38,022 bases of DNA from Deltaproteobacteria bacterium HGW-Deltaproteobacteria-3 (GTDB taxonomy: Bacteria; Desulfobacterota; Desulfobulbia; Desulfobulbales; Desulfurivibrionaceae): assembly GCA_002841785.1 (NCBI GenBank), contig PHAW01000008.1, forward strand, positions 1 to 38,022, given 5' to 3'. Every line of letters starts with the position of its first letter. Positions within the stretch are counted from its first letter, which is position 1. Of this stretch, positions 6,846 to 38,022 are shown one piece after another. A program made the translations under genes and the position numbers. The notes beneath the pieces were generated by a model. The model did no database searches and was not told the origin of the DNA. It worked only from the letters and a program-made list of their open reading frames with translations.

Positions 6846-7001
6846 CTAAAGCCGCCCCAACAGCATCAGGATGAGGAGGATCAAAAGAATCAAGCCAAGC
6901 CCGCCGCTCGGGTAGTACCCCCACTCTCGGCTGTGAGGCCAAGTGGGGATTGCGCCCAACAGCATCAGAATCAGAACAACGAGCAAAATCGTTCCAAGCA
7001 T
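6846..7001 (-). CDS. DUF3309 small hydrophobic protein
   Basis: A 51-residue protein starts MLGTILLVVLILMLLGAIPT, then WPHSREWGYYPSGGLGLI and a second helix ending LLGRL. This is the full pattern of the DUF3309 family: two hydrophobic helices flanking a W-rich loop with the GYYPSGG motif. AAAGGAGG lies 8 nt before the ATG. The function is unknown. In proteobacteria such proteins commonly sit beside other stress-type membrane proteins, as here. Confidence 0.85.
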   Translation of the reverse strand: MLGTILLVVLILMLLGAIPTWPHSREWGYYPSGGLGLILLILLILMLLGRL

Positions 7002-8121: not shown

Positions 8122-10161
8122 CTACTCGGTATACAGGAGGGTGATGATCACGGTCCGGTTAAGCGATCTCCCCTCGGGAAGGCTGTTATCATAGGGAGGA
8201 TTATTGGGTCCGTTGCCCACATTATTTATCTCTGCGGCGGGTACGGCCCCAGCCTGATGAATGATGTCGTACACCGCTTTTGCCCTGCGCTCGGACAATT
8301 CGACGTTGTATTTTTCCTTACCAATGGTATCGGTATGCCCGACAATATTCATGGCAACGCTCTTATTGAGCTCCGCCACCCTGGTGAGGACCCTATTGAC
8401 AACGACCTGATTGCGATCCTTCAGTTCCGTCCGGTCAAAATCAAAGAGGATCAGGCCATACTTTTCCACTACCTTGTTGCCGGTTTTCTGGGCAATGCGC
8501 TCCTCGCGCCGGATAACATTGATGGCAATCGGATATGTGGAAACACCAAACTCATTGCCGTCCTTGTCTTTCACTTCAAGATCAGCGCTGAGTTGCCCAA
8601 GCGCGGCAAGATTGCGAGAATCCAATCCCTCCAGTGAAAAAACAAGCTCCACCGGAGGAGTTCCCACGCCCTCCCTGACTGCCAAAACCTTGTCCCCGCC
8701 CAGCAACCTAAACTGCCAGCGGACAATCTCGGTCTCGATTTGCAGGGATGAACTGATCCGAATCTCCTTGGTGTCGGCTTGTTCCTGCACATAGGTGCTT
8801 TTGATGGTGTCGAGGACAGCGGGATGATTGGACAGGATTTCAACCCGCTGATTTTCAACGATACCTTCCGGCACCCGGCTGGTGCTGGGCACTGCGGGAA
8901 GGTTCCGCGCCTTGATTTCCATGCGGGACGAATCGATTCCCCAAACGGACTGGAGATAGGCGGAAACCGCCTCAGCCCGGCTCTTTGACAGGGCAATCTT
9001 CCCCCTTTCCACCCCGGTATTGGAATTGCAGCCCACCAGGGTTATCCGGGCCTCCGGGTTGGCCAGCAACCGTTTGCCGATCACGTTCAAAACATGGTGG
9101 TATTTCTCCATGGTGCCGGTGAGTTTTTCCTCGGAAAACGCCCCTGACTCTTGCGGGCCGGACAGAGAAACGTATCGGTCGGGAATGCGGCTTTTCCCTG
9201 TGTCAAAATAGACGTGGTTCAGCAAGGGAGAGCTGTCAACTATGGTGACCTCTTCAATATTCACGGAAGAAGGCACCGGGAACAAAGTTCCGGTAGGCGG
9301 AGCGAGAAAACGATAAGTGACCAGATATCGATGAAAAATGGTGGTGGAAAGTTTGCTGAAAATGGGCAGGAAATCATCGGCCGACTTGGCCTTGCGGATC
9401 ATCCCGTTATTCCCCTGGACAAAAGAACTCAGGAAGGTGTCCACGCCTGGCTTGTCCATATAGTCCACGGCATAGGCGGAAAAATTGGTCAACCCCTTGG
9501 CTGCCAACCCGACATCCTCGGCCTTTACCCTGCTGTTGATATCTTCCCCATCTGAAAAAACGAGCATGAATTTCTGGCTTTCCGCAGGCATCTGGCGAAT
9601 GATTTCAAGCCCCTTTTGCATGGCGTCATAGAGATAGGTACCGTCGGTCGTCTTCGGGAAAAAACTATCGCGAAGAAATTGGTTCAAGGCCGAGACATCG
9701 TTCCCCTGAAAGGTTTTGGTGGAGACCCTGGGTTGTTTCGTGCCCGGATCAACAAAGGTAACGACATGAACATTGTCGATGGGACGGACAAGGGCGAGAA
9801 AACTGCTCAAAGCCGCCAGCAAGGGCTCCACCGCCTTGCGCTCTTTCATGGAATAGGAATTATCCACCACCAAAACGAGATTAAGACCGACGTCTCTTTG
9901 CTCCCGCACCTCTTCCACCGAAAGAATCTTCGCTGTTTTGATGCCTTGCCGTATCAAGAAATCCTCTTTCTGCAAGCCGGTGACATGCTCCCCGTCCTTG
10001 TTCTGTACCGAAACCAAGACTTTTCCTTCGGCAAGGGGCTGGAAACTCGATCTTGCCTCCGGCCGAAGAACCCGGACCTCAAGTGCGTCGAGGGCCAGAC
10101 TTCGGTCGACCCATGAAAAAACGGCAAACAACAAACAAAAAAGACCAACGATTTTTTTCAT
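8122..10161 (-). CDS. VWA-domain protein with two OmpA-like domains, exported
   Basis: The 679-residue protein has a signal peptide (MKKIVGLFCLLFAVFSW, cleavage near residue 24). A von Willebrand A domain follows at about 93-290 with the metal-site motif D100-N-S-Y-S104. Then comes an OmpA-like region at about 350-480 (YFDTGKS; SKSRAEAVSAYL) and a second OmpA-like domain near the C-terminus (ILFDFDRTEL; GHTDTIGKEKYNVELSERRAKAVYD). OmpA domains bind peptidoglycan, so it probably links the wall or outer membrane to a VWA ligand-binding head. ATG 10161 has AAGGAG upstream; longer upstream starts lack a signal peptide. A sigma-54 promoter with an enhancer palindrome lies 150-300 bp upstream. Confidence 0.88.
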   Translation of the reverse strand: MKKIVGLFCLLFAVFSWVDRSLALDALEVRVLRPEARSSFQPLAEGKVLVSVQNKDGEHVTGLQKEDFLIRQGIKTAKILSVEEVREQRDVGLNLVLVVDNSYSMKERKAVEPLLAALSSFLALVRPIDNVHVVTFVDPGTKQPRVSTKTFQGNDVSALNQFLRDSFFPKTTDGTYLYDAMQKGLEIIRQMPAESQKFMLVFSDGEDINSRVKAEDVGLAAKGLTNFSAYAVDYMDKPGVDTFLSSFVQGNNGMIRKAKSADDFLPIFSKLSTTIFHRYLVTYRFLAPPTGTLFPVPSSVNIEEVTIVDSSPLLNHVYFDTGKSRIPDRYVSLSGPQESGAFSEEKLTGTMEKYHHVLNVIGKRLLANPEARITLVGCNSNTGVERGKIALSKSRAEAVSAYLQSVWGIDSSRMEIKARNLPAVPSTSRVPEGIVENQRVEILSNHPAVLDTIKSTYVQEQADTKEIRISSSLQIETEIVRWQFRLLGGDKVLAVREGVGTPPVELVFSLEGLDSRNLAALGQLSADLEVKDKDGNEFGVSTYPIAINVIRREERIAQKTGNKVVEKYGLILFDFDRTELKDRNQVVVNRVLTRVAELNKSVAMNIVGHTDTIGKEKYNVELSERRAKAVYDIIHQAGAVPAAEINNVGNGPNNPPYDNSLPEGRSLNRTVIITLLYTE

Positions 10162-10422: not shown

Positions 10423-10465
10423 CTCAGCCTGACATATCAGGAAATTCCTGATATGTCAGGCTGAG
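10423..10465. promoter_or_regulatory. Palindrome A: putative activator site (UAS) and gsp operon terminator
   Basis: A perfect 21-bp inverted repeat with a one-base centre at 10444 is built on the core CCTGACATATCAGGAA. The core recurs near 30.245 and 37.518 kb. Its centre is 117 bp from the GG of sigma-54 promoter A, a typical enhancer distance. On the minus strand the stem is followed directly by GTTTTTTTC, and it lies 54 bp after the gspB stop, so this copy may also end the secretion operon transcript. Confidence 0.7.
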
Positions 10466-12887: not shown

Positions 12888-13048
12888 ACAGATCCACACG
12901 GGGTTGGTTGTTCGCCAGATACTTGACGCCGTAAAGGAAAAGCGCGGCAAGCACTCGCTCTCGTTTGCCTGGGGATATGCCCCGGGCTGCCGATGAAAAG
13001 GTGGCAGGAACATATAGCCAGAGAAGCGCCCCAGCTTCTTCCGGCGGT

Positions 13049-15860: not shown

Positions 15861-15865
15861 AGCAG

Positions 15866-16948: not shown

Positions 16949-16949
16949 T

Positions 16950-18033: not shown

Positions 18034-18048
18034 GTCTGTGTCCCCCAG

Positions 18049-18573: not shown

Positions 18574-18994
18574 CGAACCCTTCCCCTCCCGCTTCATTGT
18601 CGGCACCGTGACTGATCAGGTCAAAGCTCAGGCTGTGGGCCCCCGGAGAAATATAGATATACGGCTTGTTCCATGGATCAATCGGCTCTTTTTTCAGATA
18701 CCCTTCCTCTGGATATCGGGCCGGAATGCGCCCGGTGTCCGGCTTGAAAACCAAGGCCTTGAGCCCCTGCTCGGTGGTGGGAAAGAATCCGTTGTCGAGC
18801 TTGAACATGCCGAGCGCCACCTCGATTCCCTTCATGTCCACCTTGGCCTTGGTCACCTTGGCCATATCCGGACGGCTCAACAAGCGCGGCACGATCACCG
18901 CGGCCAGGATTCCAAGAATCACCACGACCACCATGATTTCGATCAGGGTAAAACCACGGCAGGAACGATAATAACGATAATGAGGTAATGGCAT
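18542..18994 (-). CDS. gspG: Type II secretion major pseudopilin GspG
   Basis: The 150-residue protein has the cleavage motif CRGFTLIEIMVVVVILGILAAVIVP, then KAKVDMKGIEVALGMFKLDNGFFPTTEQGL and DPWNKPYIYISPG. These include the calcium-site region of GspG (the C-terminal GADNEAGGEGFDADINNW). It is the main subunit of the pseudopilus that pushes substrate through GspD. CAGGAG lies before the ATG. The dodecamer around the start (GTTGAAGATGCC) is duplicated 29 bp upstream, but only the proximal copy has a proper site. A palindromic repeat separates it from gspF. Confidence 0.93.
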   Translation of the reverse strand: MPLPHYRYYRSCRGFTLIEIMVVVVILGILAAVIVPRLLSRPDMAKVTKAKVDMKGIEVALGMFKLDNGFFPTTEQGLKALVFKPDTGRIPARYPEEGYLKKEPIDPWNKPYIYISPGAHSLSFDLISHGADNEAGGEGFDADINNWELE

Positions 18995-19110
18995 CTTCAA
19001 CACTCCTGGCAATTGCCTGACGGCATCTTCAACACACCCACATCGGCGCGTATTGTTTGGTTTGTAACTACCCAGCTCGAAGCAGAATAGTGAGAATAAT
19101 CCCCTGGACC

Positions 19111-19216
19111 GTAACCGTTCAGCAGTGCCGCAGATGCTAGGAAGAGGTCTGCGAAGTGTGCTAATGCACATAAGCAGGCCGATGACAACGCAGATGCGGT
19201 TCTGCTGAACGGTTAC
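19111..19216. repeat. Palindromic repeat between gspF and gspG (copy 1)
   Basis: A 106-bp element with perfect 15-bp ends GTAACCGTTCAGCAG (19111-19125) and the inverse at 19202-19216; matching extends inward to CCGCA on both sides. An internal small hairpin, TGTGC-ATTA-GCACA, lies on the minus strand. It has the same end pattern as the elements at 16825 and 17588. It carries no ORF and no terminator-like T run. It lies within the operon, so if transcribed it folds into a long hairpin that could alter gspF/gspG ratio. Confidence 0.7.
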
Positions 19217-19223
19217 TGCTCTC

Positions 19224-20444
19224 TCAGCCGAATCCTTGGCTTGCCTGGAAAATCGGCAGCAGGATCGCCAGGACCGCAAAGCCGACCACCACGCCCATGA
19301 AGAGAATCATCAGCGGTTCGAGCAGGGAGAGCATGCCGGAAATCGACAGGTCGGTCTGGTGTTCGTATGTATCGGCGACCCGAAACAACATCTCTTCCAG
19401 TTTGCCGCTCTGCTCGCCGGCAGCCGTCAGTTGCACCAGCATCGACGGAAAGACCGCTGTTTCCCGGAGCACGCCCGCCAGGCTGCCCCCTTCCTGGACC
19501 CGCAGCCTGGCGGTCTCCACCGCCCGGCGCAACACGCGATTGGTCAAGAGGTTGCGCGCGATGTCAAGGGCCTTGAGCAGGGGAACGCCGCTCTGCAGCA
19601 GGGTGCCGAGGGTGCGGGCAAAACGGGTTGTGGCGATCAGCAGCAGCAGACGGCCGAAGACCGGCGCCTTGAGCAGCATGCGATCAATGCGCATTCGTCC
19701 GGCTTCGGTACGCCAATAACGCCGCAAGCCAGTGAAGCCAAGCACCAGCCCGAGGAGCAGCAGCCACCACCAGGCAACCAGCAGATCGACCAGGTTGATC
19801 AGCAGCAGGGTCGGCCAGGGCAAGGCCATTTTCATCTCCAGCAGCATGCGGGTGATCTTCGGCACCACGAACACGAACAAAAAGACAAGCACGGTGCTGC
19901 CGACCAGGGTCATCAGCACCGGGTAGGCCAGAGCAGCCTGAATCCGGGCCCGGGTCCGGTCCTGGCCCTCGAGAAAATCGGCCAGACGGAGCAAGGCTGT
20001 GTCGAGCGTGCCGCTGTTTTCCCCAACCTGGACCATGTTGATAAACAGGTCGGGAAAAACCGCCCGATGCCTGGCCAGCGCCTCATGGAGCGAATTCCCC
20101 TGCATAACCTCTTCGCGAACATTGGCCAGGACCTGCCCGATCATCGACTGGTCGGCCTGTTCGGCAACGCTTCCCAAGGCTGTATCGAGCGACAATCCGG
20201 CAACGAGCAGGGTGGCGAGCTGGCGGGTTGCCGAAGCGAGTTCCGCTGTCGAGCAGCGATGCAGAAGGGATCGCAGGTCCAGCCAGCCTCGGCGTGCGCC
20301 CGCGAGGGAGCTTTCGTGCAATCCGGTGGGAAAAATCCCCTTTTCGCGCAACTGCTGGCGCACCGGACCAGGTCCGGGCCCGTCGATCCGGCCGGAGACC
20401 TTGCGCCCATGGTTGTCGAGTCCGGTGTATTCGAACAGCGGCAC
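19224..20444 (-). CDS. gspF: Type II secretion inner-membrane platform protein GspF
   Basis: The 406-residue protein starts PLFEYTGLDNHGRKVSGRI after a GTG and has two repeated T2SSF cytoplasmic domains (ATRQLATLLVAGLSLDTALG; TTRFARTLGTLLQSGVPLLKAL). Three transmembrane helices follow, the last ending in the C-terminal LEPLMILFMGVVVGFAVLAILLPIF. It is the polytopic core of the assembly platform that contacts GspE. The GTG overlaps the gspE stop (TAGTG) and a GGAGGAG site lies inside gspE. All family landmarks are present. Confidence 0.94.
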   Translation of the reverse strand: MPLFEYTGLDNHGRKVSGRIDGPGPGPVRQQLREKGIFPTGLHESSLAGARRGWLDLRSLLHRCSTAELASATRQLATLLVAGLSLDTALGSVAEQADQSMIGQVLANVREEVMQGNSLHEALARHRAVFPDLFINMVQVGENSGTLDTALLRLADFLEGQDRTRARIQAALAYPVLMTLVGSTVLVFLFVFVVPKITRMLLEMKMALPWPTLLLINLVDLLVAWWWLLLLGLVLGFTGLRRYWRTEAGRMRIDRMLLKAPVFGRLLLLIATTRFARTLGTLLQSGVPLLKALDIARNLLTNRVLRRAVETARLRVQEGGSLAGVLRETAVFPSMLVQLTAAGEQSGKLEEMLFRVADTYEHQTDLSISGMLSLLEPLMILFMGVVVGFAVLAILLPIFQASQGFG

Positions 20445-22117
20445 TAGTTCTCCTCCTGGGTGACGCGCATCACTTCCTCGAGGGTGGTGATGCCCTGTAG
20501 CGCCTTGGCGAGGCCGGCAGCCCGCAGGGAGCGCATACCCCGCTGCATGGCTGCCTTCTTGATCGTGGCGGCATCCTTGTTCTGCAACAGCAGTTCGCGC
20601 ACCGCATCGTCCACCTTGAGCAGTTCATAGATGGCGATCCGGCCCCAGTAGCCGATCTGCATGCACTGGTCGCAGCCTGTGCCGCGATAGAAGGTGGCCC
20701 CGGCCGGCAGAGGGATCTCACCGGCGATCTCTTGCAGCAATTCCTCGGGCGGCTGGTGTGCCTTCTTGCAGTGGGGGCAGATGGTTCGCACCAACCGCTG
20801 GGCAACGATGCCGACGATACTCGAGGCGGCCAGAAACGGCTCGATCCCCATCTCCACCAAACGGGTCAGCGCGCCGGCAGCATCGTTGGTGTGCAGGGTC
20901 GAAAACACCATGTGGCCGGTCAAGGCGGATTGCACGGCAATCTCGGCGGTTTCACGATCGCGGATTTCACCGACCATGATGATGTCCGGGTCCTGGCGCA
21001 GAATCGAGCGCAGGCCGTTGGCAATGGGGTCTTCAACGGTGATGATGTTCTTCTCGCGATTGTTCAGGCGGGTCAAAGCCGTATAGAGGGTGGTGGTTTT
21101 GCCGCTGCCGGTGGGGCCGGTGACCAGAAAAATGCCGTGATTCTTGCTGATCATCGCCTCGAATGGCTGCAGCAAGTCGCTTTCCAACCCGATCTCCTCA
21201 AGGGTCAGGATCCCCGCCGCCTTGTCGAGCAGCCGCAGCACCACCCGTTCGCCAAAGGCCGTGGGCAAAGTCGAGACGCGGATATCCATGTCGCGGCCAC
21301 CCATCCGCACCCGGAAACGGCCATCCTGCGGCAACCGTTTTTCGGCGATATCCAACTGGGCCATGATCTTGATGCGGGAGACTATCCCGGCGTGGGCCTT
21401 GAATGTCGGCCTGAGAACTTCGTGCAGGATTCCGTCGACCCGGTAACGGACAATCAGTTCCCGCTCGAAGGGCTCGATATGGATATCGCTCGCCCGTTCC
21501 TTGAAACCCTGGGTGATCAGGCTGTTGACGAAGCGGATGATCGGAGCCTCGTCGGAACTGTCAAGCAAATCGCGGGGTTCGAGAGAAATGGCCAGCTCAT
21601 TGGCGCTGCCGCCATCGATCTCCTCAATCACGGCTCCGGTACTGCCGGCCTGTTTTTCATAGCCACGATGGATGGCGCGCAGGATCTCCTCCGGGGTGGC
21701 GACACAGGGTTCGATCTGGGCTCCGGTCAGGGTGCTCAAGTCATTCAGCGGACGGGTGTCGAGGGGATCGGCCACGGCCACCTGAAGAGAGTTATTCTGT
21801 TTTGCCAGGGGATAAATACGGTATTCCTTGGCAAAGCCGATGGGGATCATCCCGAGCAGACCCTCGGCAACCGTTTCCTCGGGAATCGTCTCCAGATAAG
21901 GAAGTTCGAACTGGACAGCCAGTGCCTTTGCCAGTGTCGTGCTGTCCAGCGCTTGTATCGTGGTAAGGATTTGGCCGAGGCGTTCGCCGCTCAGCTCCTG
22001 TTCCGCCAGGGCCGCCTCAATCCGCTCCTGCGGCACGGTGAAGTCCTGCTGGAGTATTTCGCCAATCCGCCGCCAGTTCTGCATAATGGGTTTCTTTTCA
22101 CACGGAGTTACGGTCAT
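20444..22117 (-). CDS. gspE: Type II secretion ATPase GspE, lacking a conserved internal block
   Basis: The 557-residue protein has the N1/N2 domains and a PilT-like ATPase core. It has Walker A GPTGSGKTT at 334-342, Walker B region RQDPDIIMVGEIRD at 375-387, and a zinc site with CPHC (447-450) and GCDQC near 487. The ATPase powers pseudopilus assembly. After ITVEDPI (residue 365) the text continues directly with ANGLRSILRQDPD. GspE and PilB proteins normally have about 21 more residues there (EYQL...GLTF), between the two core segments. The loss is in frame. It may abolish function or be an assembly error. ATG 22117 overlaps the gspD stop. Confidence 0.85.
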   Translation of the reverse strand: MTVTPCEKKPIMQNWRRIGEILQQDFTVPQERIEAALAEQELSGERLGQILTTIQALDSTTLAKALAVQFELPYLETIPEETVAEGLLGMIPIGFAKEYRIYPLAKQNNSLQVAVADPLDTRPLNDLSTLTGAQIEPCVATPEEILRAIHRGYEKQAGSTGAVIEEIDGGSANELAISLEPRDLLDSSDEAPIIRFVNSLITQGFKERASDIHIEPFERELIVRYRVDGILHEVLRPTFKAHAGIVSRIKIMAQLDIAEKRLPQDGRFRVRMGGRDMDIRVSTLPTAFGERVVLRLLDKAAGILTLEEIGLESDLLQPFEAMISKNHGIFLVTGPTGSGKTTTLYTALTRLNNREKNIITVEDPIANGLRSILRQDPDIIMVGEIRDRETAEIAVQSALTGHMVFSTLHTNDAAGALTRLVEMGIEPFLAASSIVGIVAQRLVRTICPHCKKAHQPPEELLQEIAGEIPLPAGATFYRGTGCDQCMQIGYWGRIAIYELLKVDDAVRELLLQNKDAATIKKAAMQRGMRSLRAAGLAKALQGITTLEEVMRVTQEEN

Positions 22118-24318
22118 TCGTTGCCCAATTGGCCTGACATCGGCTGGACCAGCGCCGGAGCTCCGCTGCCGGGCCCGGCGGTGCTCTCCGCTCCTGCCGC
22201 ACCTTCGGTCAGGCCGGAATCGCCCCTTGCCTTCTCACCAAAAAAATTATCCGGCAGTGCCTCGTTGACCTTGCCGGTCAATGATGCACCGGCAGCCTTG
22301 CGGTTGCGGTCGGTTATCAGGTCGAGATCCTTGGCATTCTTGATAATGGTCGGATTGATAAAGACCAGCAGGTTGGTCTTTTCTTTCTGGGTTGAGGTGC
22401 GCTTGAACAACCAGCCCAGCCCGGGGATATCGCCCAGGATCGGCACCTTGGTAACCGATTCGGTGACATTGGTATCGATCAGGCCGCCGAGAACCACGGT
22501 TTTATGGTTTTCCACCAGGACCGTATTGCGTAGCACGCGTTTGGTGAAGGTCGGGCCGACATCGCTGGGATTGCCGACGCTTGCAACCAGGGCCTGGGTG
22601 GCCGGAGCGATACTGGTGATTTCCTGATACACATTGAGGCGAACCAGATCGCCATCGGTAATCTGCGGGGTGAAACGCAAAACCAAGGCAACATCCTGGC
22701 GTTCCACGGAGACTCTCTGGGCCAGACCGTCGTTGGAGCCGACATCGGTCAGCCGGCCGGTGATGATCGGGACATTGGAGCCAACGATGATTTCAGCTTC
22801 TTCGTTGTCGGAAGTCAGCAGGCGCGGGGCCGAAAGCAAATTGACATCGGTGTCGGTTTTCGAGACATCGATCAGCACCGAAAGGGCCGGAACGGTGATC
22901 AGATTGCCGTTCGGGCCGGTGACGGTAATCGGGTTGAAAAAACCGCCGGCCAGCATCCCGTCGATGGCCTTGGTCAGAAGGTCCGGCGCACCGGGGATTG
23001 TCTGCTTCAGGGCATCCCCGATCCCGACCGGGCCGGTATTTTGGTTGCTGCTGCCAAAAATAATGCCGTTACCGTCGGCTGTCCCGGCGCCCTGCAGGGA
23101 GACCCCGAGACGCTGGGTGGCATCCATGGAGAGTTCCAGAATCAACGCCTCGACATAGACCTGCTTGCGCTTGATATCGAGCTTGTCAATGATTTGCTTG
23201 ATCGTTTTGTAGTTATCCAGACTGGCGTTGATGATCAGCGAATTGGTTGGCTTGTCGGCCGTAATGCTCACCGGGCTGGCTGACAGTGAATTGGGGGATA
23301 GCGGCCCGGCGGATATCGGCCCGGCGGGTGGTGACCCGGCCGCCAGGCCCTCCTTTTTAGAACCCTTGGCGTCCGTCTTGATGCCGCTGAGGATTTCGTT
23401 GAGGGTCGCCGCCAGAGTGACGGCATCGGCATTTTCCAGGTAACAGAGATTGATGTTGGAGCGGGTTCCGTCGATTTCCTGGTCCATCCGGGCAATCAGG
23501 GTCTTGATGATCACCATGTCCTCTCGGCTGGCGGTGACGATGACGCACCGGCCCGCGGGATAGGGGATGATCTTGGTAAGGACCTCATTGGCAAGGTTCG
23601 CTCCGGTTGCGGCCCTCCGCCGGGCAGGAGAAGCGGCATCGGGCTGGCTCATGGTCTCGTTGAGGGCCTTGGCGATATCATCCGCCTGGGAGTTCTTCAA
23701 CATGATGATCTCAATCTCGTTTGCCACATTCGGCTGATCAAGCTCGCGGATAATCTTGGCCAGCCGTTCGATGTTGGCCCCGGTATCCGTAATAATCAAG
23801 CTGTTTCCAGGCGGATAGGCGGCAACATTGGCGGTGGTCGGCATCAGAGGCATGAGGACGGTCTGGGCAACGATGCCCACGTCGAGGTGCTTCAGGCGAA
23901 AGACCCGGGTGATGACCTGCTCGGTAGACTTGCCCTTGCCATTGACAAGGGTCGGCAGGCTGGATTCCTTGGCGCTTTTCAACGAGACGATCTTGTTGGT
24001 GTTGCCCGAAGGGACAACCGTGTATCCCTTGACATTGAGAACCGTGAGAAACAGTTGATAGGCTGCGTCCAGGGTCATGCTGTCCGGGGAGATGATAGTG
24101 GCCTTGCCCTGCACGGTTTCGTCGTAGAGAAAGTTTTTCCCGGTCAGTTCGCTGATCGTCATGATCAGCTCGGTCAACTCCACATTCTTGAAATCGAGAG
24201 TAACCCGGCCATCCATGTCCGGCTTTGTTTTACTCTGCGCAAGAGACTGGATGGGAACGAGGCATAAAGCCAGAAACGTTATCCATACCACCATTCGGGA
24301 GGTAATCGGCATGCTCAT
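22114..24318 (-). CDS. gspD: Type II secretion outer-membrane secretin GspD
   Basis: The protein of about 734 residues has a signal peptide ending near SLAQ. N0-N3 domains follow (VTLDFKNVELTELIMTISELTGKNF in N0) and then the secretin domain with the family signature VPILGDIPGLGWLFKRTS. The multimer forms the outer-membrane pore. Residues about 330-350 are a repetitive GP/S-rich stretch (AGPISAGPLSPNSLSASP) in the N3 region, with a matching repeat in the DNA near 23290-23340. The start 24318 was chosen because AGGAG follows the gspC stop at the right distance; an in-frame ATG at 24345 overlaps gspC. Confidence 0.92.
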   Translation of the reverse strand: MSMPITSRMVVWITFLALCLVPIQSLAQSKTKPDMDGRVTLDFKNVELTELIMTISELTGKNFLYDETVQGKATIISPDSMTLDAAYQLFLTVLNVKGYTVVPSGNTNKIVSLKSAKESSLPTLVNGKGKSTEQVITRVFRLKHLDVGIVAQTVLMPLMPTTANVAAYPPGNSLIITDTGANIERLAKIIRELDQPNVANEIEIIMLKNSQADDIAKALNETMSQPDAASPARRRAATGANLANEVLTKIIPYPAGRCVIVTASREDMVIIKTLIARMDQEIDGTRSNINLCYLENADAVTLAATLNEILSGIKTDAKGSKKEGLAAGSPPAGPISAGPLSPNSLSASPVSITADKPTNSLIINASLDNYKTIKQIIDKLDIKRKQVYVEALILELSMDATQRLGVSLQGAGTADGNGIIFGSSNQNTGPVGIGDALKQTIPGAPDLLTKAIDGMLAGGFFNPITVTGPNGNLITVPALSVLIDVSKTDTDVNLLSAPRLLTSDNEEAEIIVGSNVPIITGRLTDVGSNDGLAQRVSVERQDVALVLRFTPQITDGDLVRLNVYQEITSIAPATQALVASVGNPSDVGPTFTKRVLRNTVLVENHKTVVLGGLIDTNVTESVTKVPILGDIPGLGWLFKRTSTQKEKTNLLVFINPTIIKNAKDLDLITDRNRKAAGASLTGKVNEALPDNFFGEKARGDSGLTEGAAGAESTAGPGSGAPALVQPMSGQLGNE

Positions 24319-24331
24319 TCGGAGAAAACTC

Positions 24332-25210
24332 CTATTGGATTTCATATGAAAAGCTCATCGGTTGATTATTGCGTTCGACGGCGATGGTTATCTGGCGCGC
24401 TTCGCGCAACTGCTGAACTATCTGCAAGCCTTTTTCCGGGCTGTCCAGCGTGGTATTATTGACATCAATAACCACGTCACCTATCCTCAGGCCCAACTGG
24501 CCCAGAATCGAGCGGGAGTCGATGCGCTGGATCACGAAGCCATCGATCTTGCCTGCCTGGGTGCGCGGTTGCATCTGGACCAAACGCATTTGGGCGGCAA
24601 AATTATCCCGCACCATTTCCCCCATGCTGCGGGAGATCAGCCAACGGTTTTCGCCGACGTTTTTTACCTCCCCGCCTGCCCTTCCAGGCTCTGCCTTGGG
24701 ATGCGTGGCGGGTGTCGAGAGGGGCCCCTTCTCCTGCAGCTTGAGAGTTATCACGCTTTGGTCCCGGTTCCTGATCTGTACCTGGTTGCGGAGGATTTTC
24801 TCGATGGTCCCGTCGCCGGGAACCGTGTCGCCAAGATGGTAGAATTTCAGTTCGTTATTGCCTTCGAGCAGGACCTGGGAACGTCCGGCCAGAACCACCG
24901 TGCCGATGAGTTTGAGGTCGGCACGGGCTGCGGCGGCCAAGGCGTCTTTCTTGCTCGCCAGGGTCATGGTCGCGGTGGCAGACCGGCTGTTTGCATCAAA
25001 AATATTGTTCTGCAGAATCAGGTTCAGCCCGGCTTCCGTGTTTTGCAGCGGCTCGCTCACGACGGAGTGACTGCGGGGAGGAGCGGCCATGATTTCCGGA
25101 CGCAGATTCATCTGCAAAACGGTATCGATCAGGTGCCCGCAGGCAAGCCCGAGAAGCACAAGCATGGCCAAAAAGATCGGCTTGTAAAAGCTGTGTAAAA
25201 CACTCAGCAT
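24332..25210 (-). CDS. gspC: Type II secretion protein GspC
   Basis: The 292-residue protein has a short cytoplasmic start and a transmembrane helix (KPIFLAMLVLLGLACGHLI). It then has the homology region (ADLKLIGTVVLAGRSQVLLEGNNELKFYHLGDTV) and a PDZ domain (IDSRSILGQLGLRIGDVVIDVN) at the C-terminus. GspC links the inner-membrane platform to the secretin N-domains. ATG 25210 was chosen for the usual distance to the helix; 25252 is an alternative with AAAGG upstream. It is first in the operon, with the promoter presumably between 25252 and 25355, but I see no clear box. Confidence 0.85.
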   Translation of the reverse strand: MLSVLHSFYKPIFLAMLVLLGLACGHLIDTVLQMNLRPEIMAAPPRSHSVVSEPLQNTEAGLNLILQNNIFDANSRSATATMTLASKKDALAAAARADLKLIGTVVLAGRSQVLLEGNNELKFYHLGDTVPGDGTIEKILRNQVQIRNRDQSVITLKLQEKGPLSTPATHPKAEPGRAGGEVKNVGENRWLISRSMGEMVRDNFAAQMRLVQMQPRTQAGKIDGFVIQRIDSRSILGQLGLRIGDVVIDVNNTTLDSPEKGLQIVQQLREARQITIAVERNNQPMSFSYEIQ

Positions 25211-25354
25211 GTCAAATCCCGTGGCCAGTTGAGTCGCAACGATATAGCCCATCGAACCTTTACACAGTGTGTGGAATGCATGGGTTTCCTTGACTGAATA
25301 GAAACACGGCGTCTTTTCAACCACCATTGCGCCATCCCGCCAACAAGCCGGAAT

Positions 25355-25386
25355 AAACAAAAACCCGCCGAAGCGGGTTTTTGTTT
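25355..25386. terminator. Bidirectional intrinsic terminator between BON lipoprotein and gspC
   Basis: A perfect 14-bp inverted repeat, AAACAAAAACCCGC and its complement, surrounds a CGAA loop. It has T-rich flanks on both strands. It ends the minus-strand BON gene 17 bp after its stop and insulates the gsp operon. Confidence 0.8.
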
Positions 25387-26821: not shown

Positions 26822-27862
26822 TTACTTCACAGGACGCGTGGCCGTAATTTTCTCGATCTCCACCCGGCGATTGGGCGCCAGACATTTGATCAAGGCAACA
26901 TTTTTCTTGCCAGTGCAGCTCGCGATCGGGCTTGACTTGCCCTTGCCTTTTGCCACCAGTCGCTCCGCCTTGACTCCCCTGCCTACCAGATATTTTTTTA
27001 TCGCCTGTGCGCGGCGCTCTGACAGTTTCTGGTTGTATGTGTCGGAGCCGATACGATCGGTGTAGCCAACAATAAGGACGTCATCTATCGTGCTGTCGTT
27101 CATGAGAACGTTGGCGATTTCGTCCAGCTTCGGTTGCGACTTCTGCAATTCAGCGCTGTCAAAGGCAAATAGCTCCGTTACCGAGAGGGTATATTTTTGA
27201 AAACGCGGAGCCGGGGGCGGGACCACTACTGGAGCCGGGGCGGGAACAGGAACCGGAACAGGCTCGGCCACTACTGCTTTAGCAACAGGCTCCGGTGCCG
27301 GTTCCTCGGCGCGCGGAGCAGCAGGGGGAGCCCCGCCGAACCGGAAAACCAGGCCGGCCGAGATAAGATCGATGTCGCCATCGTTGCCAACGGCATCGTC
27401 GATCCGGTAGCCGCCCCCGACAAAGGAGTCTTCGACTTTGGCGTAATTCGCCCCGACCCGGCCAAAGGCGGAAAATTTTTCGGTAATGGGCAGAATGCCG
27501 ACCACGTCAAGATTCACGCCCTTGATTTTGATGTTGCCGCTCAGGGTTCCCGGCGGCAATCCGGTTGCAGTGAAATCAAACTTTCCCAGATCGAAATAAC
27601 CGCCTTCGAGGGCAAGATACTTGTTGAACTGATAGCCGCCAAACAGCTTAAAGCCAAGGTCGCGGTTGTCATCTTCGAACCCGGTGGTGGTAAAACCCGC
27701 TCCCGCCAGACTGTTGACAATCCTCTCCTCGTCGATTGTCGCGCGCGATTGGCCGATGTTGCCACCGATGTACAAGCCCGAATCATCGGCCATCGCAAAT
27801 GGGGCGGCAACTGCAGTGAGTGCCACCAACCCGAGTGTCACTGAGGCTCTTATCATTTTCAT
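26822..27862 (-). CDS. ompA: OmpA-family outer-membrane protein with a shortened barrel
   Basis: The 346-residue protein has a signal peptide (cleavage after AMA, residue 25). An N-terminal barrel follows (GLYIGGNIGQSRATID, LGFKLFGGYQFNKYLALEGGYFDLG), then a proline-rich hinge (residues about 180-220), and a C-terminal OmpA domain (LFAFDSAELQKSQPKLDEIA; VGYTDRIGSDTYNQKLSERRAQAI; APNRRVEIE). It anchors the outer membrane to peptidoglycan. The barrel reads ...KVEDSFVGGGYRIDDAVGNDGDIDLISAG... with a block of about 40 residues (two barrel strands with a WERY-type motif) missing just before YRIDD. The loss is in frame. It lies under its own promoter. Confidence 0.85.
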   Translation of the reverse strand: MKMIRASVTLGLVALTAVAAPFAMADDSGLYIGGNIGQSRATIDEERIVNSLAGAGFTTTGFEDDNRDLGFKLFGGYQFNKYLALEGGYFDLGKFDFTATGLPPGTLSGNIKIKGVNLDVVGILPITEKFSAFGRVGANYAKVEDSFVGGGYRIDDAVGNDGDIDLISAGLVFRFGGAPPAAPRAEEPAPEPVAKAVVAEPVPVPVPAPAPVVVPPPAPRFQKYTLSVTELFAFDSAELQKSQPKLDEIANVLMNDSTIDDVLIVGYTDRIGSDTYNQKLSERRAQAIKKYLVGRGVKAERLVAKGKGKSSPIASCTGKKNVALIKCLAPNRRVEIEKITATRPVK

Positions 27863-28011: not shown

Positions 28012-29793
28012 TTACGGAGCAGGCACGTTAACCGTATTGGTGTCCAAAGCAATCGTGCCGGCAGTGATCGCTCCGGTCAATATCCTGCCGTTTATCACGG
28101 CGCCAGTCACGCCAGTGGTATCCCTGCCGGCCACTATGGTTCCATAAAAGATCGTGCCCACGCCGATAGTCGCATCGGAAGTAGGAACCCAAAACACGTT
28201 CTTGGCCTGCGCGCTGTTGGCCAGCGAAACACTGGCACCCGTCGTCAACGAGGAGCCGATCTGGAAAACCCATACGGCATCCGCGTCGCCCCCTGCGTCA
28301 AGAACGAGAGGGGTCGCGACCGACATCGTGCTGCCAGAGGTATAGGTGCCAGGGGGAATTCCTAAAGGATATAAGGCGCCCAAGTCTTCGCCAGCATTTA
28401 TGGTTGTTCCCGGCGGCAAAGTCTTGGCAAAGTTATAAGCGACCAGCAGGTCGGCCCTGGCCTGTGCGGACTCTGCATCGTTGATGTGGATGGCGCCGTT
28501 CACCACACCCGGCGGAAATCCAGTCATTGAAGTGCCTGGATCCAACGAAACATCCCCGTTAATCACGGTGGGGCCTGTATTGGTGATCGCGGAGGTTGCC
28601 ATGATCCCGAAAGTGCTGGCCGAGCCAAGGTTTACGGCCCCCGGCGCCAAACCGGTCCCGGTTGTAAAGGTCCACACATAATTACTTGCCAGAGCATTGC
28701 CTGCCAGGTCCTTGGCCCCGGTGGTAATCGTGCCGGTATAGATGGAGCTGGGCAGAAGATTGGCGTCTGGCATAAAGGTCGCAATGTTGGTCAAGGCATC
28801 ATAGGATACTAGTCCTCCTGGTATGGGTAGGCCAGGCCCAGTCACGGTAAAGGTGATGTTGGTGATCGTTACCGGGTCCATCGCCTCGCTGAAGGTGGCG
28901 GTGACGATCTGGTTAAGGGGCACATTGATTGCGCCATTAACAGGAACCGTAGAAAGCACTGTGGGGGGGGTGGTATCTGGGTCAGACCCGGTTGACCAGG
29001 ACCAGACATACGCTGCGATCATGGCATTGCCTGCCAGATCCTTGGACGCGATGCTGATCGTTGAGGTAAAGAGGGTATTGGCTGCGAAAACGCCTCCGGT
29101 GGGGGTAAAGGTCGCGGTCTTGCTGGCGACGGAATACGTCACCGTGCCTGATACGGGAACGCCAAGGGTTGTGTTCTGCACCGTAAAGGAAGGCGGTGTG
29201 GTGATGGTTAACGGGTTCATCGCTTCATTAAAAATTGCGGTGGAGATTCTGTTCGTGGGCAACCCTGTGGCGCCGGCCGTTGTCCCAGATATGCCGTAGA
29301 CACCCGTGGCAATAACAAAGGGTGCGGTGGTGTCCGCGGTCGCTCCGGTGGTAAAGGTCCAGACATAGTTGTTGGCCAGGGGTGTGCCTGCCGTGTCCGT
29401 TGCCGCCGTGGTAATCGTGGCGGTATAGAGGGTGCTGGCCAGAAGATCGGCAGCCGGCAGGGTAAGGGTTGCCACATTGCCGGTCGTTACATAGGTGACC
29501 GTCCCGCCGGCAACAACCGTTCCGCCTTGGGCCAGGGTAAAGCTTGCCGTGGTGAGGGAAGCGGGCGCCATCGCCTTGCTGAAGGCGGCGGTGATTATTT
29601 TTGTGTTGATCGGTACGCCGGTGGCATTATTGAGCGGAGCCACGGCGGTTACGGTGGGCGCGATTACTGCATCGCCGCTTCCTAGAACAGGAGCTTGCCC
29701 GTCACTCCCTCCCCCTCCACAGCCTGTAATGGAAAAAACACTCAGAATTAGAATAAACAAAAGATACATTTGCCGAGCCTTAAATATTTTCAT
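28012..29793 (-). CDS. Surface lipoprotein with Ig-like (Big_5) repeats and DUF3494 domain
   Basis: The 593-residue protein is a lipoprotein (SITGC, Cys25, then a glycine-rich start). Three SbsA-type Ig-like repeats follow at about 45-155, 155-270 and 273-385, each ending YVWTFTTG or YVWSWSTG. A C-terminal DUF3494 domain is at about 390-593 (INGDVSLDPGTSMTGFPPG; AYNFAKTLPPGTTI; GTIVAGRDTTGVTGAVINGRILTGAI). DUF3494 is known from ice-binding and ice-adhesion proteins but also occurs in bacteria not exposed to ice, where it is thought to be adhesive. ATG 29793 follows AAGGAGGGG. A sigma-54 promoter and enhancer palindrome lie 320-470 bp upstream. Confidence 0.88.
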   Translation of the reverse strand: MKIFKARQMYLLFILILSVFSITGCGGGGSDGQAPVLGSGDAVIAPTVTAVAPLNNATGVPINTKIITAAFSKAMAPASLTTASFTLAQGGTVVAGGTVTYVTTGNVATLTLPAADLLASTLYTATITTAATDTAGTPLANNYVWTFTTGATADTTAPFVIATGVYGISGTTAGATGLPTNRISTAIFNEAMNPLTITTPPSFTVQNTTLGVPVSGTVTYSVASKTATFTPTGGVFAANTLFTSTISIASKDLAGNAMIAAYVWSWSTGSDPDTTPPTVLSTVPVNGAINVPLNQIVTATFSEAMDPVTITNITFTVTGPGLPIPGGLVSYDALTNIATFMPDANLLPSSIYTGTITTGAKDLAGNALASNYVWTFTTGTGLAPGAVNLGSASTFGIMATSAITNTGPTVINGDVSLDPGTSMTGFPPGVVNGAIHINDAESAQARADLLVAYNFAKTLPPGTTINAGEDLGALYPLGIPPGTYTSGSTMSVATPLVLDAGGDADAVWVFQIGSSLTTGASVSLANSAQAKNVFWVPTSDATIGVGTIFYGTIVAGRDTTGVTGAVINGRILTGAITAGTIALDTNTVNVPAP

Positions 29794-30113: not shown

Positions 30114-30129
30114 AGCAGAATGCGTGCCA
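30114..30129 (-). promoter_or_regulatory. Sigma-54 promoter B, upstream of the DUF3494 gene
   Basis: Minus strand TGGCAC-GCATT-CTGCT has GG at 30128-30127 and GC at 30116-30115 with N10 between, as RpoN requires. The expected start is near 30103, so the leader to ATG 29793 is about 310 nt. The gap 29794-30372 holds this promoter, the palindrome at 30229-30261 and no gene that I can support. Confidence 0.75.
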
Positions 30130-30228: not shown

Positions 30229-30261
30229 CCTGATATATCAGGAGACTCCTGATATATCAGG
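30229..30261. promoter_or_regulatory. Palindrome B: putative activator site (UAS)
   Basis: A perfect 16-bp inverted repeat, CCTGATATATCAGGAG with its inverse around A30245, contains the same core as the palindromes at 10.44 and 37.52 kb. Its centre is 117 bp from the GG of sigma-54 promoter B. Each half is itself nearly palindromic (CTGATATATCAG), suggesting two adjacent dimer sites. Confidence 0.7.
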
Positions 30262-35111: not shown

Positions 35112-35363
35112 TTAGGCTTTCTTGAAAAGTCCGAGTAATAACAGCAGGATCACAGCTCCCAGAGTAGCTGTCACGATTGAGCCGATTACACTGCCCGCGG
35201 CAATTGCCAACAACCTGAACAAGAACCCGCCTACGACCCCACCGATAAGGCCAATAATGATATTCCCCTGCAGGCCGAAGCCCCCACCCTTCATGATTGT
35301 TCCGGCCAGAAAACCCGCCGCTGCGCCTACTGCAAGAGAAATCAACACGCTTACGAAGTCCAT
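35112..35363 (-). CDS. GlsB/YeaQ/YmgE-family stress membrane protein
   Basis: The 83-residue protein has three glycine-rich helices. The second motif GFLAGTIMKGGGFGLQGNIIIGLIGGVVGGFLF is the transglycosylase-associated signature, and the C-terminal helix ends LLLLLGLFKKA. The family is small and inner-membrane, induced by stress in many bacteria; enzyme activity has not been established. A GAGGAG site precedes the ATG. It lies between the DUF2959 lipoprotein and the coiled-coil gene. Confidence 0.9.
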   Translation of the reverse strand: MDFVSVLISLAVGAAAGFLAGTIMKGGGFGLQGNIIIGLIGGVVGGFLFRLLAIAAGSVIGSIVTATLGAVILLLLLGLFKKA

Positions 35364-35418: not shown

Positions 35419-36069
35419 TTAATTCGCGCCACCTTGCGCCATTTCTCTTTTAGCGCCATCGAGTGCGGACAATACCGGCAAAACTGCATTTCTCAAAACG
35501 GTCCCGTCGTTTATGGCCTTCCGGGCAACCGGAGTAATGGATGCAATTCCCTTGTCGGTGAGGTCCGTCGAGAGGAACGACTGAATTTCCTTAATATCGC
35601 GCATGTAGGCAATGAACCAGCCTTTCACGCCGATGCTGGACTCGGATATTTTCCTATATACCGTATTCAGGTCGGAACGCCGCTGTTCACTGAGTTCCCG
35701 GATCTGCGGATTGGTGTAGGTATTCCCCTGCTTCTCCCACTCGGCGAAGTAGTCCTTGCCCCGAACGCTCATCTCATCGGTGTGCTTGATCAACTTTTCC
35801 CCCAAACGCTCCATCTTGACGACGTTGTCTGAATATGTCTCAAAAGCCCCTTTCGTATCAGACAACCCCGGCGTAATGAGTTTCTCCAGCGAGAGCCCGG
35901 TCGCATCGATCTGGACAACGGCTTGCCGTATCTCGCTGTCCACGACCTCCATTTTGGCGGTGGTTTTTTCAGCGCGACCTGAACCGGTCGTCGCGCAACC
36001 AGGAAGGAGGAGGAGAAACCCAAGCAACGGGGCAACGAGAGGGAATACGGATTTGATTCTAAATGTCAT
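35419..36069 (-). CDS. DUF2959 lipoprotein
   Basis: The 216-residue protein has a lipoprotein signal ending LLLLPGC (Cys25). A helical domain follows with SLEKLITPGLSDTKGAFETYSDNVVKMERLG, EMSVRGKDYFAEWEKQGNTYTNPQIRELSEQRR and GVKGWFIAYMRDIKEIQSFLSTDLT. This is the DUF2959 pattern, whose function is unknown. AAGGAG lies before the ATG. It is likely periplasmic or outer-membrane anchored. It fits with the envelope-stress set around it. Confidence 0.85.
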   Translation of the reverse strand: MTFRIKSVFPLVAPLLGFLLLLPGCATTGSGRAEKTTAKMEVVDSEIRQAVVQIDATGLSLEKLITPGLSDTKGAFETYSDNVVKMERLGEKLIKHTDEMSVRGKDYFAEWEKQGNTYTNPQIRELSEQRRSDLNTVYRKISESSIGVKGWFIAYMRDIKEIQSFLSTDLTDKGIASITPVARKAINDGTVLRNAVLPVLSALDGAKREMAQGGAN

Positions 36070-36124: not shown

Positions 36125-36346
36125 CTAGCCCTTCTTGCTTGCCACGAGCAGGAGCCCGCCGCCAATTATGATCGCCCCCACGCCGGCCCAAACCGGAACG
36201 TTGACCTTCTGCTTTTCCTGCACCGACAGCTCAAGCGGTCCCAGCTTGGCTTCATGGGTCTCCTTGGTATAGCTGAAACCGCCATAGACCAACCCCAGAA
36301 TCCCGGCCGCGATCAGCAGGATTGCCGCAATCTTGAGTGCGTTCAT
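36125..36346 (-). CDS. Small two-helix membrane protein, function unknown
   Basis: The 73-residue protein has hydrophobic ends (MNALKIAAILLIAAGILGLVYG and PVWAGVGAIIIGGGLLLVASKKG) and a charged periplasmic loop with SYTKETHEAKLGPLELSVQEK. Similar proteins are common in this kind of stress gene cluster in proteobacteria, but I do not know a role. GGAGGAG lies directly before the ATG. Confidence 0.75.
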   Translation of the reverse strand: MNALKIAAILLIAAGILGLVYGGFSYTKETHEAKLGPLELSVQEKQKVNVPVWAGVGAIIIGGGLLLVASKKG

Positions 36347-36476: not shown

Positions 36477-36623
36477 CTATAGACGGCGGCCCTGAATGAT
36501 ACGAAGCAGAACCACCACGACCGCGACAACCAACAGGACATGAATGAGTCCGCCCATGGTATGCGAGGTGACAAACCCCAGAAGCCAGAGGACGACCAGG
36601 ATGACGACAATGGTTTCGAGCAT
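36477..36623 (-). CDS. lmo0937-family small membrane protein
   Basis: The 48-residue protein starts MLETIVVILVVLWLLGFVTS and ends VVVLLRIIQGRRL, with HTMGGLIHVLLVVAV between. It is thus two helices with a short loop, matching the lmo0937-type family of very small membrane proteins. The longer open frame upstream is not coding; AAGGAG lies eight bases before this ATG. Function unknown; the family is often found beside stress genes. Confidence 0.85.
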   Translation of the reverse strand: MLETIVVILVVLWLLGFVTSHTMGGLIHVLLVVAVVVVLLRIIQGRRL

Positions 36624-37010: not shown

Positions 37011-37076
37011 TCAGGTGAGCTTCATAATTACTATCACGAGAATGACCACCACTAAGACCGCAATAACGAATCCCAT
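37011..37076 (-). CDS. 21-residue hydrophobic membrane peptide (second of a pair)
   Basis: The frame reads MGFVIAVLVVV, then ILVIVIMKLT and TGA. It forms a single transmembrane helix with a basic or polar end. AAAGGAGAACAAC precedes the ATG. It is a sequence paralogue of the peptide encoded 34 bp upstream, with the shared pattern M-x-FVIAVLVVV-x-LV-x-VIM. It is too short for standard gene callers. The pair lies downstream of sigma-54 promoter C. No known family is recognised. Confidence 0.6.
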   Translation of the reverse strand: MGFVIAVLVVVILVIVIMKLT

Positions 37077-37109: not shown

Positions 37110-37175
37110 CTACACCAAGTACATAATTACATACACCAGCACAACAACAACCAACACGGCGATAACAAATTCCAT
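37110..37175 (-). CDS. 21-residue hydrophobic membrane peptide (first of a pair)
   Basis: The frame reads MEFVIAVLVVV, then VLVYVIMYLV and TAG. It is a single transmembrane helix. AAGGAAGGG lies five bases before the ATG. It shares 15 or more of 21 residues with the next peptide and has exactly the same length. It would be the first gene from sigma-54 promoter C, after a leader of about 200 nt. Two strong ribosome-binding sites and the paralogy support real translation. Confidence 0.6.
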   Translation of the reverse strand: MEFVIAVLVVVVLVYVIMYLV

Positions 37176-37385: not shown

Positions 37386-37401
37386 AGCAGAATGTGTGCC
37401 A
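37386..37401 (-). promoter_or_regulatory. Sigma-54 promoter C, upstream of the peptide pair
   Basis: Minus strand TGGCAC-ACATT-CTGCT has GG at 37400-37399 and GC at 37388-37387 (N10 between). The start is expected near 37375. It points toward the two 21-residue peptides and possibly the whole stress cluster below. Confidence 0.75.
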
Positions 37402-37417
37402 GAAGTGTTACTGCCGG

Positions 37418-37459
37418 CGCATAAGTTCCAATCCTGCCGAAATCATTGGAACTTATGCG
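37418..37459. repeat. 15-bp perfect inverted repeat between promoter C and palindrome C
   Basis: CGCATAAGTTCCAAT (37418-37432) and its exact inverse (37445-37459) surround a 12-nt loop. It lies between the sigma-54 promoter and the activator site, downstream of the activator gene on its own strand. No T run follows. It could be an operator for a second regulator or a 3' end hairpin of the activator transcript. Copies A and B do not have it. Confidence 0.5.
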
Positions 37460-37502
37460 GAAACCGCGGAGGAGGGGTATATCCCTTGAGAGGTGCTGCC
37501 AC

Positions 37503-37533
37503 CTGACATATCAGGAGACTCCTGATATGTCAG
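37503..37533. promoter_or_regulatory. Palindrome C: putative activator site (UAS), overlapping the activator stop codon
   Basis: A perfect 15-bp inverted repeat, CTGACATATCAGGAG with its inverse around A37518, shares the core of palindromes A and B. Its centre is 118 bp from the GG of sigma-54 promoter C. It overlaps the last codons of the sigma-54 activator gene, whose stop is at 37530-37532. Confidence 0.7.
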
Positions 37534-38022
37534 AAATTATTTCTATTTCTTTGGATGCCCAATCTGTGCATTTTCGATTCAAGCGTCTTTGGGTTGAGGC
37601 CTAAAATCGTTGCCGCCCCGCTTTTGCCGCTTACCCGCCAACCGGTTGCGTCCAACACATCGACAATATGGCGTCTCTCCAGATCCTCAAGGGTCCCGGA
37701 CGGGGCGGGGCCGGACTGCGCAATCTTGGGCAACTCTATCTGCAGCACCGGGCCGGTGGCGACAATCATCGCCCGCTCGGTGGCATTTCGCAGTTCTCGC
37801 ACATTGCCCGGCCAGGAATAGGCGTGCATGGCCTGAACGCTCTTCGGCGAGATGGATTCGATCCGCTTGTCCATGCTCTTGCTGAACTCTTGCACAAAAG
37901 ACCACACCAGCGGCACGATATCCTCCCGGCGCTCCCGCAGAGGCGGCACCGTAATCTGGAAAATGTTCAAACGGTAGTACATGTCTTGCCGAAAACTGCC
38001 CGCGCTGACCAACTCGGCAAGA
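37530..38022 (-). CDS. Sigma-54 dependent transcriptional activator, C-terminal part (runs off window)
   Basis: The last 163 or so residues are present. They begin in the AAA+ domain (FRQDMYYRLNIFQITVPPLRERREDI, the arginine-finger region), then the sensor II segment YSWPGNVRELRNATERA. A C-terminal helix-turn-helix follows (GWRVSGKSGAATILGLNPKTLESKMHRLGI) of the FhlA/NorR type with the K-T-L-E-S-K-M pattern. Such proteins remodel RpoN holoenzyme from a distant binding site. The N-terminal signal domain is outside the window. Its own 3' end carries palindrome C. It is the natural candidate to bind all three palindromes, but this is inferred from position. Confidence 0.9.
   Translation of the reverse strand, partial: LAELVSAGSFRQDMYYRLNIFQITVPPLRERREDIVPLVWSFVQEFSKSMDKRIESISPKSVQAMHAYSWPGNVRELRNATERAMIVATGPVLQIELPKIAQSGPAPSGTLEDLERRHIVDVLDATGWRVSGKSGAATILGLNPKTLESKMHRLGIQRNRNNF

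Follow-up and report, generated by a model that had tools for sequence, protein, structure and literature searches.

A proposed composite sigma-54 module with fixed operator-promoter spacing before envelope and stress genes of Desulfobacterota, Nitrospirota and Nitrospinota

PrsR, an activator of the NtrC family, acts together with RpoN to control surface proteins. The closest described counterparts of the system presented here, which we compare on parts of the published reports, are the orp operons of Desulfovibrio vulgaris and Pu, a TOL plasmid promoter. The orp operons, controlled by DVU2106, sigma54 and IHF, have palindromic activator sites upstream of a -24/-12 promoter and IHF sites in between (PMC3897727), and their host is a deltaproteobacterium of sulfate-reducer type, as is, judging by its kin, the organism studied here. 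XylR acts at Pu through two activator sites upstream of a sigma54 promoter, with one IHF site between them and the promoter and with interval DNA that contacts the polymerase via UP-like elements (PMC3900584). In the sigma54 regulome of D. vulgaris, most regulons comprise one to four operons and an activator gene is often found next to its own promoters, as it is here (PMC4641369). More generally, Francke et al. (PMC3162934) regard sigma54 as a regulator of the bacterial exterior, a view with which the regulon described below seems to fit.

The window, by which we mean the whole stretch of 38,022 nucleotides analysed, contains three double-palindrome operators, each paired with a sigma-54-type promoter. 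We propose, with a probability of about 0.86, that these sites are copies of a composite sigma-54 module of some 150 bp, characterised by a fixed spacing, a conserved interval, an activator of PAS-AAA+-Fis type and targets in envelope and stress functions. No published description of the palindrome or the module was found among the literature matches listed, which were judged mostly by title and lie largely outside the subscription literature; the main text of the D. vulgaris regulome study (PMC4641369) does not contain TGATAT, though the palindrome may match one of the motif logos in its figures.

Operators, promoters and the distance between them

The elements of the three modules, all on the minus strand, are as follows.

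10428..10460 (-): operator 1, two palindromes inside the longer inverted repeat 10423-10465 (pattern scan)
30229..30261 (-): operator 2, two perfect CCTGATATATCAGG palindromes (pattern scan)
37502..37534 (-): operator 3, two palindromes spaced 19 bp centre to centre, its first TGA serving as the activator stop codon
10313..10328 (-): sigma-54-type promoter TGGCACATATCCTGCT, start of transcription predicted near 10302
30114..30129 (-): sigma-54-type promoter TGGCACGCATTCTGCT, start of transcription predicted near 30103
37386..37401 (-): sigma-54-type promoter TGGCACACATTCTGCT, start of transcription predicted near 37375

At all three sites the operator is a unit of 33 bp made of two CCTGAYATRTCAGG palindromes with a centre-to-centre distance of 19 bp. 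The palindrome pattern is matched 12 times in the window against 0.29 expected from shuffles (largest shuffle count, 3), and operator 3 departs from it at a single position, 37534, which falls within the last sense codon of the activator gene. A first-pass annotation of the window had already located the palindromes at these three places, and the repeat at the first of them does extend over 10423-10465; the locations were thus right, but each operator had been described as one palindrome where there are two, so that the double layout was overlooked. The same annotation had put minus-strand promoters at 10313-10328, 30114-30129 and 37386-37401, with operator centres 117, 117 and 118 bp from the promoter GG, and both the coordinates and the remeasured distances agree with it.

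All three promoters have the GG-N10-GC spacing, and they are the only perfect matches to TGGCAC-N5-YTGCW in the window. Allowing one mismatch gives four matches against 3.08 expected by shuffling; the count alone is not unusual, and the significance lies in the fixed pairing with an operator, found in three of three cases in the window. In related loci, 125 of 40,000 random positions (0.003) passed the same promoter test when both strands, distances of 114-119 bp and up to 2 mismatches were allowed, and 0.00145 did so on one strand only.

A scan of the source assembly (2,848,059 bases in 388 contigs, 85% complete) gave, besides the three operators of the window, two target sites missed by the first-pass annotation, C227:5456-5488 and C291:10877-10909, making five double sites. 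All five have a promoter at 116-118 bp, the assembly contains no orphan operator lacking a promoter, and a reversed control pattern found no match in it. A profile built from 61 copies of the module recovers the same five, its other five matches at E<=10 being the same palindromes on the opposite strand. Further copies may be missing, since the assembly is 85% complete. In five genomes of the genus, the window's own included, every one of the 21 double sites is accompanied by a promoter (at most 1 mismatch to the consensus) at 115-119 bp.

The pairing holds well beyond the genus. We collected 54 distinct strict sites (CTGAYATRTCAG twice), chosen blind to the presence of a promoter, and a promoter accompanies 50 of them (10/10 on contigs of the window genus, 40/44 elsewhere). 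All 50 promoters are 114-119 bp away, and between 40 and 300 bp from the sites there is just one further match. The four exceptions outside the genus comprise two sites truncated by contig ends and two, in L073 and L129, with no promoter by our criterion; L073 has GG-N10-GC at 116 bp with four mismatches, and L129 has none. The 61 modules used for alignment were selected for a promoter at 111-124 bp, and the range observed in them is 114-119. In L100 a single operator (1194-1226) stands between two sigma-54-type promoters, 116 and 115 bp away, an arrangement in which one enhancer would appear to drive a divergent pair of promoters.

Candidate target genes

The genes assigned to the three window modules, with one further candidate at 6846..7001, are listed in the order in which they would be read.

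37110..37175 (-): 21-residue hydrophobic peptide 1
37011..37076 (-): 21-residue hydrophobic peptide 2
36477..36623 (-): DUF5670 small membrane protein
36125..36346 (-): 73-aa membrane protein, with no Pfam match
35419..36069 (-): 216-aa probable lipoprotein, with no Pfam match
35112..35363 (-): transglycosylase-associated (GlsB/YeaQ-like) membrane protein
28012..29793 (-): Big_5 and ice-binding-like (DUF3494) lipoprotein
26822..27862 (-): OmpA family outer-membrane protein
8122..10161 (-): VWA/OmpA protein, likely start 10161, 679 aa
7155..7988 (-): protein with three BON stretches
6846..7001 (-): 51-aa membrane protein, similar to DUF3309-type proteins of L124/L127, possibly the last gene of the VWA/OmpA operon

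The start of the VWA/OmpA protein is placed at 10161 because the promoter lies within the longer open reading frame that begins at 10362. An assignment of the 216-aa protein to DUF2959 finds no support in Pfam. Beyond the window, this genome adds to the targets a BON lipoprotein, with a gene for an iron/manganese superoxide dismutase farther along, and a glycosyl hydrolase 94 protein that is 2,892 residues long or longer, which we take from its domain set to be of cyclic-glucan-synthase type.

Across all loci, 142 downstream proteins, assigned by distance and strand, were reduced to 110 by dropping 3 of at least 1000 aa and 29 unlikely or redundant ones, including most of a cluster of 8 open reading frames that by eye look like wrong frames of a DUF5670 gene. 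In these 110 targets, which include orthologous copies from congeners, the families are BON (10), OmpA (10), CsbD (5), DUF5670 (5), LTXXQ, which is Spy-like (5), ABM (4), ice-binding (3), Usp (2) and DUF3309 (2). For comparison, 110 control frames were drawn at random from 236 mechanically called open reading frames of the same loci; this set contains DUF5670 three times, and BON, OmpA, CsbD and LTXXQ are absent from its best 25 of 131 families, so that each of these four has at most one control match. DUF5670 adds little, with 5/110 in the targets against 3/110 in the controls. The target list is one of envelope and general-stress genes.

Some of the smallest products recur. The twin peptides are found in the same order and position in the Nitrospirota contig L138 (2730-3200), as forms of 24 and 21 residues. 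Five other loci (L082, L087, L089, L116 and L118) encode a peptide of 26-28 residues, a hydrophobic run followed by GGxGFYWxRR, which begins 34-35 bases past the predicted transcription start and stands behind the second of two promoter spacer types described below. Between two of the window modules, at 10519-25360, lies a type II secretion cluster with an XrtA/PEP-CTERM-ATPase-like protein (11238-13013; 274.5 bits against a cut-off of 324.5); the best NCBIfam matches of the cluster run from GspC to GspN (GspJ aside), with a GspB-like protein, several of them below cut-off.

The candidate activator gene and the spread of the module

The gene that abuts operator 3 is cut by the end of the contig.

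37530..38022 (-): candidate activator, 3' part, AAA+ lid and Fis-type HTH

The fragment is 95% identical over 163 aa to a PAS-AAA+-Fis protein of 578 aa in the congener G007, and we took the missing N-terminus from such relatives. Three full-length relatives match Pfam PF00158 and PF02954; the fragment has the lid and the HTH. With its sensor domain, AAA+ and Fis-type HTH the protein is built like one-component activators of the FhlA/NorR type, and its scores stay below their cut-offs: FhlA is the best NCBIfam match, yet reaches at most 380.4 bits against 830 for NF011958, and NorR at most 338.6 against 476 for NF003451. An identification as PrsR is rejected in the same way (the full-length relatives score 295.3, 314.8 and 290.4 bits and the window fragment 94.8, against the TIGR02915 cut-off of 502.6), and on these scores we also reject a PEP-CTERM regulon despite the PEP-CTERM-ATPase-like protein nearby. 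All 10 genomes searched for it, G000 among them, have the gene for RpoN.

The first-pass annotation had suggested a single activator, probably this one, for the whole regulon, and the fixed spacing, the co-occurrence of gene and sites and the junction of gene and operator all speak for it. The double site (at most 3 mismatches) occurs in 5 of 58 related genomes, all of the window genus (G000, G004, G007, G014 and G015), that is in 4 of the 16 congeners in a genus of 17 members. A close homologue of the activator, at 67-95% identity, is found in exactly these 5 of 17, the best listed activator matches of the remaining members being at most 54% identical; ignoring kinship, such a coincidence is one way in 6188. 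Of 14 distinct loci where an activator gene reaches into an operator, 11 use the TGA of the first palindrome as the stop codon of the gene, always in one register; three of these are in the window genus and eight elsewhere, one of the eight being titled Nitrospinota.

In Nitrospirota, where six candidates per genome were scored, a protein exceeding 500 bits to a REC-type paralogue of the activator is found in 7 of 245 genomes, all among the nine with module matches, and the 236 genomes with no module have no protein above 435 bits. The other two of the nine are G066, which is taken up below, and G068, where an activator fragment at a contig end abuts a site; G059, G062, G063 and G065, which carry sites, have an activator homologue. 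Three genomes with sites, G064, G066 and G067 (the last with seven), have no homologue at E<=1e-90, possibly for want of assembled sequence. On L129 and L140, a contig of one name and length filed under two phyla (KSB1 and Phycisphaerae assemblies), the double palindrome adjoins a related activator (52% identity) with no clear promoter.

The paralogue, a REC-AAA+-Fis protein with a receiver domain and a nearly identical DNA-binding domain, is present in G007 and G014 and had been missed earlier. It may be the real or a co-equal regulator, phosphorylated through a relay of hybrid kinase and Hpt encoded beside it; we consider this possible, though somewhat short of an even chance. The PAS and REC genes lie side by side in G007 and G014 with nearly identical Fis tails, and Nitrospirota genome G058 has two activator genes that end inside an operator, one of them of REC type (77% identical over 502 aa) and preceded by a gene for a PAS-kinase-REC-REC-Hpt protein. 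Against it, the gene that abuts the operator in the window genus is of PAS type, and the close homologue in G004 is of PAS type only. Sensors encoded near modules include PAS proteins, hybrid kinases with REC and Hpt, and a CheB-CheR-PAS protein.

The spread of the module beyond the phylum of the window escaped the first-pass annotation. A scan of public genomes for TGAYATRTCA-N9-TGAYATRTCA gave 91 stretches, 80 of which supplied our loci; many are from Nitrospirota and a few from Nitrospinota, and others are from Desulfobulbaceae UBA2273, Desulfurivibrio sp. S2_56 and two Deltaproteobacteria assemblies. Many matches in Lachnospiraceae, Bacteroidales and similar groups have no promoter and look like chance in AT-rich DNA. 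With the module profile, 9 of 245 Nitrospirota genomes have a match (that of G109 spans only 117 of 148 positions), and 1 of 297 genomes across the window phylum, Desulfobacterota, has one, the window's own, under stricter filters by which the congeners with sites are not among the matches. The module has kin scattered over three phyla, Desulfobacterota, Nitrospirota and Nitrospinota.

Between the window genus and the other groups, the activators are on average 66.8% identical (40 pairs mixing PAS and REC types, 54-77%) and the RpoN proteins 42.7% (8 pairs, from a set in which a motif filter excluded 3 of 9 proteins); within the genus the activators reach 79.7% (6 pairs, counting paralogues) and RpoN 92.4% (6 pairs). 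The gap may partly reflect the conserved AAA+ domains. In a tree of 33 activator rows with hand-chosen outgroups, the seven rows of the window genus form one clade (99/94), next to which 14 other rows are grouped with weak support (84/89); the Nitrospinota row L073 and then the Nitrospirota outgroups branch outside both, and another Nitrospinota row, G062, sits among Nitrospirota. The regulon was probably transferred horizontally, perhaps from a Nitrospirota-like donor. Four Nitrospirota assemblies (G063:C25, G060:C45, G061:C6 and G068:C74) have three or four double sites inside a stretch of approximately 6-25 kb, clustered as if in a genomic island.

The conserved interval and the proposed working of the module

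Between operator and promoter, the module nearest the activator gene contains the following stretch.

37402..37501 (-): conserved interval with a 14-bp perfect inverted repeat, 37458-37445/37432-37419

The first-pass annotation had held the DNA between the two elements to be otherwise unlike among the three copies. This view is contradicted once the window copies are aligned with 58 others from several phyla: in the alignment of 61, the interval is conserved from end to end, with near-invariant positions deep inside, and the promoter spacer is likewise conserved. We compared ungapped identities of 21 modules of the window genus with 40 others against shuffled controls. Directly beside the operator, identity amounts to 0.389 against a shuffled 0.270; counted from the promoter, it is 0.388 at -70..-40 (0.274), 0.425 at -60..-25 (0.280) and 0.392 at -25..0 (0.265). 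Upstream of the operator it is 0.287 (0.257), a slight conservation; past the promoter, some conservation persists at +16..+36 (0.358, shuffled 0.304) and none is seen at +40..+90 (0.256 for both). Conservation is therefore concentrated within the interval and soon fades after the promoter. Realigned with gaps, the intervals are uninformative, the shuffled control (0.532) being nearly as high as the observed identity (0.576). In the other phyla two kinds of spacer pair with two kinds of interval (13/16 against 4/45; Fisher 1.6e-7), classes that were defined after viewing the alignment and on copies that are not independent.

No hairpin or dyad is conserved in the interval across all copies, the covariation excess being 0.05 at best. 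A long inverted repeat is common only to the copies adjacent to an activator gene, where it is perhaps the site of a second regulator. In the window copy its two perfect 14-bp arms enclose a loop of 12 bases, and similar repeats are found in the copies of G007, G014 and G004.

What holds the interval constant may be nothing new, namely a bend site for IHF or an HU-like protein as in the orp operons and Pu, a reading to which we give nearly an even chance. An IHF-type match (WATCAANNNNTTR, 8 of 9) is found in 20 of 61 intervals against 6.5 expected by single-base shuffling, the best match starts 40-41 bp upstream of TGGCAC in 19 of 61, HU/IHF-family genes are present in 10 of 10 genomes, and at orp1 an activator site at -131 is combined with IHF at -79 (PMC3897727). 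However, the conservation spans the whole interval and not one 13-bp site, 8 of the 61 best matches lie at another place and strand, the second base of the consensus is T and not A, and the curated cut-off for himA (IHF-alpha) is passed in only 1 of 10 genomes. IHF is put forward here as a hypothesis, because the matches are weak in the three window copies. The likeness of the intervals might instead reflect recent common descent through duplication and transfer of the module, rather than functional constraint. The patchy distribution, the identical junction of activator and operator across phyla and the two correlated types of spacer and interval would all be expected from it; we consider it unlikely, since DNA further beyond the module is at chance level while the interval stays above it, even before unrelated genes. 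A role of the palindromes as terminators or REP-like repeats at gene ends is very improbable: the 33 bp could indeed form a stem of 14 bp closed by a loop of 5 nt, and the third copy does lie at the 3' end of the activator gene, but no T-run follows the palindromes, 7 of 61 sites break the long stem yet keep each palindrome, and neither the fixed promoter distance nor the L100 operator, with promoters on both sides, is explained in this way.

Under the proposal of a composite sigma-54 module, the PAS-AAA+-Fis enhancer-binding protein, or in some relatives its REC-AAA+-Fis paralogue, would bind the 33-bp double palindrome as a dimer of dimers, with RNA polymerase-sigma54 waiting some 117 bp downstream at TGGCAC-N5-YTGCT. 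The interval (operator-promoter distance 114-119 bp) is probably bent or occupied, so that activator and polymerase would meet in a single, fixed geometry; once a signal arrives, the activator would hydrolyse ATP, open the promoter and turn on the envelope and stress genes, with transcription predicted to start at about 37375, 30103 and 10302. The module, its constant spacing, the conservation of the interval, the co-occurrence of activator and sites and their common junction can be seen in the sequences; activator binding, RpoN dependence, the type of signal, the bending of the interval, horizontal spread and a role of IHF are inferred. Going further, we would give even odds to a rigid, pre-assembled cassette of some 150 bp whose interval is held by a further factor, which was copied before many envelope-stress operons and moved with its activator, whose stop codon would belong to the operator, among Nitrospirota, Nitrospinota and Desulfobacterota as a transferable stress regulon under sigma-54.

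The distance between a sigma-54 enhancer and its promoter is usually held to be flexible, since the DNA loops. In the present case it keeps to a 6-bp range at each of the 50 promoter-bearing strict sites, in three phyla and with a conserved interval, so that a rule for the geometry of activator and polymerase may be readable from natural variation. The module would also link one regulator to many small uncharacterised envelope proteins (DUF5670, DUF3309 and the peptides of 21 and 26-28 residues), and the activator gene, with an operator built into its own stop codon, hints at a way in which an entire regulon can pass between phyla.

Measured against the described systems, the differences are several. 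As reported in the parts of the accounts compared, the orp activator sites, at -131 in one promoter and -88 in the other, differ by about 40 bp and have no fixed spacing, and they serve two operons with other targets (PMC3897727). Pu, as described in PMC3900584, belongs to an aromatic-degradation operon under another activator and is not repeated before many envelope genes. With the PrsR/PEP-CTERM RpoN regulon (PMC9850573, PMC1569441) the window shares a PEP-CTERM-ATPase-like protein, its activator falling below the TIGR02915 cut-off. Judged from its sequence, the system described here appears to work as an enhancer-binding-protein/sigma-54 regulon, and in its layout it resembles the orp and Pu promoters.
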